DNA of 64,000 nt from Bacteroidales bacterium. Lineage in GTDB: Bacteria; Bacteroidota; Bacteroidia; Bacteroidales; G3-4614. This document shows, one piece after another, positions 54,768 through 58,372 of the stretch. Location: contig SUXK01000004.1 in assembly GCA_015061035.1 (NCBI GenBank), forward strand, positions 1 through 64,000, written 5' to 3'. The notes beneath the pieces are model-generated. The model did not search any database, was not told the origin of the DNA, and saw nothing but the letters and a program-made list of their open reading frames with translations. Each line of letters begins with the position of its first letter. The stretch's first letter is position 1. The position numbers and the translations under genes were made by a program.

Positions 54768-56384
54768 TTATAAAATAACCTTTTGTGAGTTATTGTCGGT
54801 TACAACTATATAAACACCTTTTGGAAGGTTTAACTTAACCGAGCCATTGACAACAACATTCTTTATAACTTGTCCTGAGAGGTTTACGATACGAAGTGTT
54901 CCATAATATTTATTTACTTCAATACCATCACCTACCATAATCTTAATTTCTGCTTTTGAAATTCCAACATCTTCAATACCAGAAAGGTCTGTCTCCACTA
55001 TATTTGCGAACTCACTCCAACCTCCAGTTGTTTCGTATGTTGATTTTGCTCCTTTAGGAACATATAGGGTACAGTTTGTTTTATCAACTCCCAAAAATTC
55101 ATAACTGCCTACCTCAAAGAGTTTTTCCGCAGGGATTAATGATGTTATACTTGTTAGACCTTCACAATATAAAAATGCGAACACTCCAATACTTGTTACA
55201 CTTTGAGGAATGGTTACACTGGTTAATTTAGTACATCCTGTGAATGCAAACATCCCTATACTTGTTACGTTACAAGGAATTACAGAATTATTACAAGTAG
55301 CGATCAAAGTATTTGTAGCCGTCTCTATTATTGCATTACAATCTTCTCGACTATCGTAATAACTATTTTCGGGAGCAACTGTTATTGTTGCTAAAACTTT
55401 ACAACCTTCAAATAAGGTAGAGCCTATACTTGTTACACTACTGGGTATTTCAATACTTGTTAGAGTTTCGCACCATGAGAATGCCGATGCTCCTATAGTT
55501 GTTACTCTATTGGGAATAGTAACACTTGATAGTTTGTAACAATATGAAAATGCAGACCGACCTATAGTTATAACACTATTCGGGATGGTTACACTGGTCA
55601 GTTTATAACATTCTTCAAATGCATTATCACCTATTATTGTAACACCCTCAGGTATTTCAATTGTTTTTAAATCACAATAATAGAATGCACTATTCCCAAT
55701 ACGGGAAACATTCTTACCAATATTTACAATAGCAAGATCCGAACAATTATTGAAAGTACCATCTTCAACAGCAGTAAGACCTGTGCCTATTGTTACACTT
55801 TTTAATTTTAAACACATAGCAAATACATATCCACCCATACTTGTAACACTATTGGGTATGGTTATGCTTGTTAAATTTTGACAACTATAAAATGCTTGAA
55901 AGCCTATAGTTGTTACACCATTACCAATAACAGCACTTGTTAGACCTGTGCAGCCAGAAAATGCATTATCTCCTATAGTTGTTACACTATTTGGTATTTC
56001 AATACTTGTTAAACTTGTGCAATTAGAAAATGCATAACGTCCTATATAAGAGACACTATTGGGTATTTCAACACTTGTTAGACTTGTGCAATTAGAAAAT
56101 GCATCTTCTCCTATACTTGTTACACTATTAGGTATTTCAATGGTTGCAAGTCCAGTACAATCTGAAAATGCTCCATATCCTATATCTGTAACAATATAAG
56201 CAATATCTTCATAAATGACTGTTTCAGGAATTATAATATTTCCTGCACAATCACTTCCCGAAACCTCTACTGCTATGTCGCCAATGATACGATAATATAT
56301 ACCATCAACCTCAAAATCACTTGCATTAAGTATTGGGCTACATAGTAACAATAAATAGATAAACATGTGTTTTAGTCTTTTCAT
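54768..56384 (-). CDS. BspA-type (TpLRR) secreted leucine-rich repeat protein with T9SS-like tail
   Basis: ~23-aa repeats such as LTSVTIPNSVTSIGVFAFLYCEG; C-terminal LRIVNLSGQVIKNVVVNGSVKLNLPKGVYIVVTDNNSQKVIL. Confidence 0.92.
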   Translation of the reverse strand: MKRLKHMFIYLLLLCSPILNASDFEVDGIYYRIIGDIAVEVSGSDCAGNIIIPETVIYEDIAYIVTDIGYGAFSDCTGLATIEIPNSVTSIGEDAFSNCTSLTSVEIPNSVSYIGRYAFSNCTSLTSIEIPNSVTTIGDNAFSGCTGLTSAVIGNGVTTIGFQAFYSCQNLTSITIPNSVTSMGGYVFAMCLKLKSVTIGTGLTAVEDGTFNNCSDLAIVNIGKNVSRIGNSAFYYCDLKTIEIPEGVTIIGDNAFEECYKLTSVTIPNSVITIGRSAFSYCYKLSSVTIPNRVTTIGASAFSWCETLTSIEIPSSVTSIGSTLFEGCKVLATITVAPENSYYDSREDCNAIIETATNTLIATCNNSVIPCNVTSIGMFAFTGCTKLTSVTIPQSVTSIGVFAFLYCEGLTSITSLIPAEKLFEVGSYEFLGVDKTNCTLYVPKGAKSTYETTGGWSEFANIVETDLSGIEDVGISKAEIKIMVGDGIEVNKYYGTLRIVNLSGQVIKNVVVNGSVKLNLPKGVYIVVTDNNSQKVIL

Positions 56385-56448
56385 ATCTTTTCTTTTATTT
56401 AAATTGCCTTTCGTCCCCCAAAAGACTTAAACAATAAGAATAAAAAAA

Positions 56449-56744
56449 GCGTGGGAACCATACTGTTACTCGTCCCACGACATGAGGCCTTCGCATTGCC
56501 CATCAATGTTGAACGAGCAACGCAGAAGCCCACGCAGATATGCAATGGAGTATATATACATTATACTCCTATATTTACACACCAACAGGCATCTACAATT
56601 GCTTCATCCTTGACATTGATTTTAGAAGTTGCGAAGTTCCATGTCGTCAAGATTGAGCGTAAGTAAACGCTTTTTATTTTATGTCTGCACCCTACCCACA
56701 CAACCCATATAGGGCTTCTGCAAGCGATATGCTTTGCAAAGATA
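56449..56744 (-). ncRNA. Structured 5' leader / ncRNA candidate upstream of the BspA-type gene
   Basis: Several inverted repeats with alternative partners, a minus-strand TATCTTTG box at 56744-56737, and a terminator-like T-run at ~56447-56441. Confidence 0.5.
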
Positions 56745-56901
56745 CGAAAAAAAATCAAATCTATTGCCATTATATACACATCTTTGTCTGTTCTCCGTAA
56801 ACTTAAATGTAACAAAAAGGTATTTTTTTAACTATTATTATAACTTTTTGTTAGTACAAATCTAAAAAAATCATCTTTTGTCAAAAAAAATCGTAAAAAA
56901 G

Positions 56902-56933
56902 TTGCAAAATTCCGTTTTAGTATATTACCTTTG
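56902..56933 (+). promoter_or_regulatory. gdhA promoter
   Basis: TTG (56902-56904), 21-nt spacer, TACCTTTG (56926-56933). Confidence 0.65.
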
Positions 56934-57037
56934 CAAGGTCTTGATAAAGACCTATTGGGTTACAAACAAAACTATACCCAAATAGGTTATACGAGATAAG
57001 AGTTTTGAATTAATAACAATTTTAAATTTATAAAAAA

Positions 57038-58372
57038 ATGGAAGTTAAGAAAGTTTTAAGCGATTTGAAAAGACGCTTTCCCAACGAGCCTGAATATCAT
57101 CAAGCAGTTGAAGAGGTTTTAATGACAATTGAAGAGGAATACAACAAACATCCTGAGTTTGATAAATATAATTTAATTGAAAGACTTTGTATTCCCGATA
57201 GAGTGTTTACTTTTAGAGTTACTTGGGTTGATGACAAAGGTCAAGTTCAAACTAATATGGGTTATCGTATCCAACACAATAACGCTATTGGACCCTACAA
57301 AGGTGGTATCCGTTTCCACTCTTCTGTAAACCTTTCTATTTTAAAATTCCTTGCTTTTGAGCAAACATTCAAAAACTCTCTTACAACTCTACCTATGGGT
57401 GGTGGCAAAGGAGGTTCAGACTTCAGCCCTCGCGGTAAATCTGATATGGAGGTTATGCGTTTCTGCCAAGCATTCGTTACTGAGTTGTGGCGTCATATAG
57501 GTCCTCAAACTGACGTTCCTGCTGGAGATATTGGTGTTGGTGGTCGTGAAGTTGGTTACATGTATGGAATGTACAAAAAAATGGCCCTTGAAAACACAGG
57601 TACTTTCACAGGTAAAGGTATTGAGTTTGGTGGATCATTGGTTCGCCCCGAAGCAACAGGTTATGGTAACGTATATTTCTTACTTGAGATGCTAAAGACT
57701 AAAGGCATTGATATTAAAGATAAAGTTGTTGCTGTATCAGGATCGGGTAACGTTGCTCAATATACAGTTAAAAAACTTATCAGCCTTGGTGCTAAGGTTA
57801 TTACAATGTCTGATAGCAATGGTTATATTTACGACCCAGATGGTATAGATGAAGAGAAACTTGCATTTATTTTCAACCTAAAAAATGTTCAACGCGGACG
57901 CATTAGAGAGTATGCTGAGAAATATGGTTGCAAATATGTTGAAGGCGCTCGTCCTTGGAATGAGAAATGCGATATTGCAATGCCAAGTGCAACTCAAAAC
58001 GAGATTGACGGAGATGATGCTCGCGCACTTCTTGCTAACGGATGTTTTGCTGTTTCAGAGGGTGCAAATATGCCTTCTACTCCCGATGCTATTGCAGAGT
58101 TCTTGAATGCCAAGATTCTTTACGCTCCTGGTAAAGCGGCTAATGCTGGTGGTGTTTCAGTTAGTGGTTTGGAGATGACTCAAAACTCAATTAAACTAAG
58201 TTGGAGCAGAGAAGAGGTTGATGCAAAACTTCAATCAATTATGAAAGATATTCACTCTCAATGTACTCTTTACGGAAAACAAGAGGATGGATACATTAAC
58301 TATGTTAAGGGTGCTAACGTTGCAGGATTCATGAAAGTTGCTAAAGCAATGATGGCTCAAGGTATTTTGTAA
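57038..58372 (+). CDS. gdhA: NADP-type glutamate dehydrogenase
   Basis: MGYRIQHNNAIGPYKGGIRFHSSVNLSILKFLAFEQTFKNSLTTLPMGGGKGGSDFSPRGKSDMEVMRFCQAF. Confidence 0.98.
   Translation: MEVKKVLSDLKRRFPNEPEYHQAVEEVLMTIEEEYNKHPEFDKYNLIERLCIPDRVFTFRVTWVDDKGQVQTNMGYRIQHNNAIGPYKGGIRFHSSVNLSILKFLAFEQTFKNSLTTLPMGGGKGGSDFSPRGKSDMEVMRFCQAFVTELWRHIGPQTDVPAGDIGVGGREVGYMYGMYKKMALENTGTFTGKGIEFGGSLVRPEATGYGNVYFLLEMLKTKGIDIKDKVVAVSGSGNVAQYTVKKLISLGAKVITMSDSNGYIYDPDGIDEEKLAFIFNLKNVQRGRIREYAEKYGCKYVEGARPWNEKCDIAMPSATQNEIDGDDARALLANGCFAVSEGANMPSTPDAIAEFLNAKILYAPGKAANAGGVSVSGLEMTQNSIKLSWSREEVDAKLQSIMKDIHSQCTLYGKQEDGYINYVKGANVAGFMKVAKAMMAQGIL

Follow-up and report, generated by a model that had tools for sequence, protein, structure and literature searches.

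The 64,000-nucleotide stretch of DNA analysed here (the window) carries on its minus strand, at about 56731-56442, a single member of a conserved RNA family that was recognised by DNA search and with a covariance model. The position of this RNA, its fold and the competing pairings of its 3' end suggest that it is probably a cis-acting regulatory leader belonging to a new RNA class, which would terminate transcription conditionally ahead of the gene that follows. Bacteroidales are a dominant order of gut bacteria and, to our knowledge, few regulatory RNA classes have been described for them.

A conserved leader RNA and its distribution

The initial annotation had proposed that the minus strand gives rise to a structured leader in which stems exclude one another and whose 3' end resembles a terminator, and both folding energy and covariation support this well. 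At −108.6 kcal/mol, the 297-nt minus-strand stretch folds far more stably than its shuffled versions, which average −76.5 (z = −7.0, 0 of 200 shuffles). All strings quoted in that annotation, including TATCTTTG, TCCCACGC, CGACATG/CATGTCG, GCGTGGG and GTGGGA, occur on the minus strand where it had placed them, as do GGAGTATA (56569-56562) and TATACTCC (56554-56547). Table 1 collects the features of the locus; for the leader itself, the 5' end is inferred from the promoter box and the 3' end is placed at the U-run.

The suggestion that TATCTTTG is a promoter box gains support from the family as a whole, as the motif TAnnTTTG stands at the 5' end of the RNA in 164 of 206 copies, compared with 17 expected from shuffles. 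Between RNA and gene it occurs in 5 of 166 gaps, with 5.0 expected, a count that speaks for this promoter type only. At the other end, the frequency of T across copies is 0.67-0.95 over about 8 nt and comes near background by about 15 nt, with poor U-runs in some copies, for example L207 and L121. The pairing of the 5' strand GCAGAAGCCC with GGGCTTCTGC has an equivalent in L034, formed by GCAGAAACC with GGTTTCTGC, and alignment column pair 23-201, which belongs to it, is 91% paired. A scan of the window for tRNA and tmRNA found none. A perfect inverted repeat, GGTCTTGATAAAGACC, occupies window positions 56933-56950, in the divergent intergenic region that leads up to the glutamate dehydrogenase gene.

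Table 1. Features of the leader RNA locus, with paired strands given 5' strand first.
Feature	Position	Strand	Evidence or remark
Structured leader RNA, ~290 nt	56442..56731	minus	z = −7.0; 207-copy alignment; covariation
Promoter −7 box TATCTTTG (Bacteroidota type TAnnTTTG)	56737..56744	minus	immediately upstream of the RNA
5' strand GCAGAAGCCC, 10-nt complement of GGGCTTCTGC	56712..56721 (complement 56531-56522)	minus	one subgroup of copies
Helix P6, GCGTTTAC with GTAGATGC	56670-56663 with 56596-56589	minus	94% paired; double-sided change at 5/8 pairs
Helix P7, CTTG with CAAG	56651-56648 with 56612-56609	minus	80.5% paired; double-sided change at 4/4 pairs
Hairpin P8	56639-56637 with 56627-56625	minus	91% paired; double-sided change at 3/3 pairs
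Long-range helix R1, CGACATG with CATGTCG	56646-56640 with 56484-56478	minus	92% paired; double-sided change at 7/7 pairs
Loop pseudoknot R2, CTTCGCA with TGCGAAG	56636-56630 with 56495-56489	minus	99.9% paired (103 copies)
Pseudoknot R3, ATCAATGT with ACATTGAT	56620-56613 with 56509-56502	minus	73% paired (imperfect alignment)
Helix P5, GCGTGGG with CCCACGC	56535-56529 with 56455-56449	minus	99% paired (103 homologs); double-sided change at 3/7 pairs
Helix P4, GTTGCTCGTTC with GGACGAGTAAC	56521-56511 with 56475-56465	minus	96.6% paired over 10 aligned pairs, 4 with double-sided change
Alternative T, local terminator hairpin, GTGGGA with TCCCAC	56478-56473 with 56456-56451	minus	84.6% paired
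Alternative AU, A-rich AAAAGCGT with ACGCTTTT	56674-56667 with 56452-56445	minus	94.8% paired
U-run after the terminator strand	56442..56448	minus	T at most positions
Hairpin L (CTTT...AAAG)	56408..56424	minus	hairpin z = −3.84
Controlled gene (candidate), 538-aa exported BspA-type leucine-rich-repeat protein (LRR_5)	54768..56384	minus	Pfam LRR_5 E = 1.1e-103
Glutamate dehydrogenase gene	57038-58372	plus	preceded by the divergent intergenic region with GGTCTTGATAAAGACC

A DNA search turned up several relatives per genome, both within the genome and genus of the window and in further families of the same order. Twenty-two copies were aligned to build a covariance model for the 3' core, which detected the RNA in 55 of 393 sampled Bacteroidales genomes and 30 of 206 genera, with up to nine copies per genome. 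Because copies whose 3' core is well conserved are found preferentially by this model, the counts are lower bounds; most of the sampled genomes gave no copy. In total we collected 212 distinct copies, so the recurrence across Bacteroidales that the initial annotation had looked to is present, with diverse genes downstream. A sample of the phylum contained no matches outside Bacteroidales, the window's own order, and a pattern scan of GTDB representatives returned at least 118 stretches, nearly all of which, among the matches listed, carry the labels of Bacteroidales groups. The matches listed include loci in cultured bacteria, namely Bacteroides caecigallinarum ET12, B. bouchesdurhonensis and Xylanibacter rarus 109. 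Three further copies (L090, L110 and L124) sit on MAG contigs whose labels read Firmicutes, Clostridia or Lachnospiraceae; these labels are probably binning errors, with Bacteroidales contigs in mixed bins, transfer being another conceivable reading. Collections of phage, plasmid and viral sequences held almost no copies (three viral contigs, zero plasmids and one unverified faecal phage contig), and a phage or plasmid origin was rejected on these grounds.

A pseudoknotted fold and the rival partners of the terminator strand

All column pairs of the 207-copy alignment were scored with no structure assumed, and the top signals were contiguous helices, which were recounted independently on 103 copies using the alignment tool's own alignment. 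In these copies the fold comprises 55 pairs with 91.3% of cells paired, and double-sided compensations number 873 cells compared with 301±19 after shuffling (0 of 500 shuffles) and at most 250 with slid partners; the shuffle controls leave in the relatedness among copies, and the controls with slid partners or with swaps inside one genome are better. A lack of homologs with compensatory changes had been named beforehand as the result that would speak against the element, and the opposite was decisively found. This covariation supports a triple-pseudoknot fold in which two hairpin-like domains interlock, an upstream one made of P6-P8 (56670-56589) and a downstream one made of P5 and P4 (56535-56449). 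The upstream domain gives three strands, and their complements in R1-R3 come from the loop inside P4.

Among all helices, R1 has the strongest covariation. The upstream strand of R2, CTTCGCA, is the loop of P8; the first pair of this helix is C-G in 57 and U-A in 45 of the 103 copies, and the helix switches between the types CTTCGCA/TGCGAAG and TCTCGCA/TGCGAGA with pairing kept. In R3 the sequence swaps almost freely among copies, with many double-sided changes at all 8 pairs. The proposed pairings GACATG/CATGTC and GCGTGGG/CCCACGC correspond to R1 and P5, and GTGGGA/TCCCAC to the alternative T, while the three-helix pseudoknot, the helix GTTGCTCGTTC/GGACGAGTAAC and the hairpin after the terminator that pairs with the terminator strand had been missed. 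A long hairpin, ggcttctgcgttgc/gcaatgcgaaggcc, was also part of the original proposal; it is 87% paired but does not covary (4 double-sided cells compared with 3.4), and we rejected it from the main fold. Its 3' strand covaries instead with the upstream loop CTTCGCA in R2, a pairing absent from the earlier proposal. As its strands are nearly invariant, the long hairpin is possible as a local state of the isolated 3' part, which folds as ggcttctgcgttgc/gcaatgcgaaggcc together with the terminator T. The further pairing GGAGTATA/TATACTCC is not conserved and falls in a region variable in length and sequence.

The terminator strand TCCCACGC (56456-56449) immediately precedes a run of seven T residues, and the hairpin T is directly followed by this U-run, as in an intrinsic terminator. 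Taken alone the terminator hairpin is unremarkable (z = −1.45). Across 103 homologs T has 41 double-sided cells against 12.2 after shuffling, a weaker covariation than that of P5, and where the terminator strand departs from the consensus the local T partner is fully complementary in 74 copies, compared with about 50 when partners are random. T and P5 are unable to coexist, and the P4 fold also excludes T because P4 occupies the GGA that T requires. The original idea of mutually exclusive stems was therefore right, since T, incompatible with P5, covaries in its own right. A third partner is the A-rich 5' strand: AU has 23 double-sided cells compared with 9.1 after shuffling, is also supported by the swap test, and sequesters both the terminator strand and the U-run. 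The terminator strand thus covaries with its partners in P5, T and AU and pairs in a copy-specific way with hairpin L, all of these pairings being mutually exclusive. Some covariation is also seen for GCAAC/GTTGC (columns 128-134 with 205-211; window 56603-56597 with 56522-56516), which competes with P4 and, along with AU and T, hints at further intermediate states of the leader.

Hairpin L lies in the 5' UTR, between U-run and start codon, and is also present in L031, L032, L252 and other copies. Its loop GGGGAC (56418-56413) is complementary to GTTCCC of the terminator strand (56458-56453). At least six Watson-Crick pairs are formed by a copy's own combination of loop and terminator strand in 64 of 147 cases, against 20.6 for swapped combinations (maximum 28) and 10.4 for shuffled ones, and the paired stretch ends a median of 24.5 nt before the ATG. 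Within the same genome the loop matches its own terminator strand in 48% of cases and that of a paralog in 9%, which makes the pairing copy-specific beyond what lineage composition would give. The three copies in the window's genome have three different sequences (GUUCCC/GGGGAC, GCTCCC/GGGAGC and CAACTC/GAGTTG), and the flanks of the loop form a stem of at least 5 bp in 34 cases, where shuffled flanks would give 11.7. It is unusual for such a partner to be synthesised only after read-through. Both AU and L form only once the polymerase has passed, and so are themselves unable to prevent termination at the U-run.

Downstream genes and a model of conditional termination

The gene behind the RNA in the window is on the same strand, with its start codon 57 nt past the U-run. 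With genes called by simple ORF rules, 197 of 204 copies are followed by an ORF of the same orientation and 7 by one of the opposite orientation, mostly a small antisense ORF, and the median gap is 67 nt (interquartile range 52-78); the orientation of the upstream gene is mixed (115 to 74). Judging from this arrangement and from the chance-level count of TAnnTTTG in the gap, expression of the downstream gene most likely relies on transcription through the RNA.

The association with a BspA-type gene, put forward in the initial annotation, exists in the window and does not extend to the family, in which BspA-type repeats account for 13 of 141 first downstream genes; a BspA-specific element was rejected for this reason. 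The other first genes encode outer-membrane barrels, LytTR regulators, radical-SAM peptide substrates, FHA and kinase proteins, lipoproteins, and restriction- or defence-type methyltransferases and helicases. A crude test of hydrophobicity suggests export or a membrane location for 93 of 183 first downstream ORFs, compared with 41 of 168 nearest upstream ORFs. A type III methyltransferase, an HKD/Snf2 helicase and a protein with an AbiH-like start, the last assigned by eye only, lie directly behind the RNA in L070, L047 and L083. The set of downstream genes thus seems to include some of defence type; they are a minority, and a dedicated defence-system RNA was rejected accordingly. A radical-SAM-like gene lies downstream in 10 of 93 testable loci (L075, L103, L089, L094, L110, L102, L141, L161, L168 and L148), in some of which small Cys-rich peptide genes follow right after the RNA, as in RiPP-like clusters.

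Transcription probably starts at the TATCTTTG promoter and would have to cross the entire RNA to reach the gene. In this model the P6-P8 domain would use R1-R3 to capture the loop region inside the downstream domain, helping P4 and P5 to form, and RNA polymerase would then read through. If the pseudoknot is absent, the 3' part would fold alone into the long hairpin and terminator T followed by the U-run, and transcription would stop. On the long transcript, either the A-rich 5' strand (AU) or the L loop, just ahead of the start codon, could then capture the terminator strand. Since these two act only after read-through, they may fix the leader in its read-through state or also influence translation. 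We infer termination and its conditionality, the assignment of the pseudoknotted fold as the "on" state, and control by a signal, which could be a small molecule, an ion, a protein or an RNA. That one genome can carry multiple copies ahead of unrelated genes is what a shared signal would lead one to expect. The model is weakened by the length of about 290 nt, large for a riboswitch, by the diversity of the genes, which suggests no ligand, by the poor U-runs of some copies, by the modest covariation of T relative to P5 and by the absence of the RNA from most sampled genomes.

Other explanations have to account for the same observations. A stand-alone structured ncRNA, with its own promoter and a constitutive terminator, could act in trans or bound to protein, the genes being reached by leaky read-through or from an unrecognised promoter. 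Such an RNA would be expected to have its own promoter box and terminator-like end, and its size, its conserved loops resembling those of large ncRNAs and its conservation in many genera would all fit; but the one-sided association with genes (197 to 7) and the narrow gap would then be hard to understand, the copy-specific pairing with L in the 5' UTR ties the RNA to the following mRNA, and up to nine divergent copies per genome are unusual for a trans-acting RNA. We consider it unlikely, and a cis-acting leader is favoured because of position and the lack of a TAnnTTTG box downstream of the RNA. A post-transcriptional switch would make the U-run a structural strand that pairs with the A-run, rather than mainly a terminator, and L would control translation or mRNA stability; in a variant, the terminated leader would be a self-specific antisense RNA on the L loop of its own mRNA. 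The support for AU, the copy-specific pairing of L, within a hairpin and close to the ATG, and the want of a good U-run in some copies agree with such a switch, which nevertheless appears rather unlikely given a conserved U-rich tract with the profile of an intrinsic terminator and a short, covarying terminator hairpin directly before it.

A cassette in which promoter and RNA spread together by recombination, retained as the driver of acquired genes, would explain why many copies precede unrelated accessory genes (BspA proteins, peptide clusters, restriction or defence genes) and why a copy with 85% identity precedes another BspA-type gene at a different locus in a related species. Paralogous copies, though, have usually diverged and do not look like products of recent duplication, the copies L031 and L050 are orthologs that share both flanking genes, phage, plasmid and viral collections are nearly free of the RNA, and the extensive compensatory evolution indicates that the RNA itself is functional, which together leave mobility as a very improbable explanation. 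Chance complementarity around an ordinary terminator, which the small terminator hairpin alone might have suggested, is already refuted by homologs in 55 genomes with hundreds of compensatory changes and has next to no claim on our belief. The cis-acting leader with conditional termination is the reading that we prefer. A fuller version of it can be offered only tentatively, and may well prove wrong: a switch class specific to Bacteroidales, in which a signal stabilises the three-helix pseudoknot and thereby blocks the terminator, the copy-specific loop then captures the terminator strand, locking the "on" state or tuning translation, and genes for surface proteins, peptide clusters and defence form a regulon under one signal. 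If true, a shared signal would govern host- and competitor-facing functions, represented by adhesin-like BspA proteins, clusters for peptide natural products, lipoproteins and defence genes. With the fold and its compensatory pairs in hand, specific mutants are directly testable.

Relation to known regulatory RNAs

Searches of the window against Rfam 15 at the gathering and a relaxed threshold returned only chance matches, and 20 further members gave no match over the RNA; neither the window nor these members had a gathering-threshold match to any family, including 6S, Bacteroidales-1, T-box and the large ornate RNAs. A literature search found no description of the leader family, with HMP2_1881 as a possible overlap. 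This 108-nt Bacteroidetes candidate lies near radical SAM genes and is reported to be expressed in faecal metatranscriptomes (Fremin and Bhatt 2021, PMC8040213). The conserved 3' core of the leader is similarly about 100 nt long and has radical-SAM-like genes downstream at some loci, so that HMP2_1881, compared here by length and gene neighbourhood, could be a fragment of the leader RNA. If the two are the same RNA, the earlier description covers only a fragment, without the upstream domain, the pseudoknots or the cis logic.

The leader resembles GOLLD, ROOL and OLE (PMC12286853) in being a large, pseudoknotted and strongly conserved bacterial RNA, and differs from them in being smaller and chromosomal, with several copies per genome. 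It is also fixed just upstream of same-strand genes and has no Rfam match to these RNAs. With attenuators controlled by protein or RNA, the leader shares a terminator and competing stems that are mutually exclusive and lie before a gene. Attenuator leaders of this kind are as a rule shorter and found with a single type of gene, and the copies of the leader RNA, unlike them, have no dedicated partner protein gene seen alongside.

The initial annotation had left riboswitch, attenuator and stable ncRNA side by side, and by sequence alone the RNA could be a ligand-binding riboswitch, a protein-controlled attenuator or an ncRNA. The RNA does have the attributes of a riboswitch in its 5' leader position, its covarying tertiary fold and an expression platform with mutually exclusive pairings. 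Like transcription-termination riboswitches, it is a conserved, complex fold whose terminator strand has an alternative pairing, and one RNA family stands before many different genes per genome. Unlike known riboswitches, it is about 290 nt long, has three pseudoknot helices, no known ligand and no Rfam family, and carries an extra copy-specific loop after the terminator; we know of no described riboswitch in which the terminator strand pairs in this copy-specific manner with a loop beyond the terminator. Taken together, these likenesses and differences suggest that the leader most likely represents a new riboswitch- or attenuator-like class.
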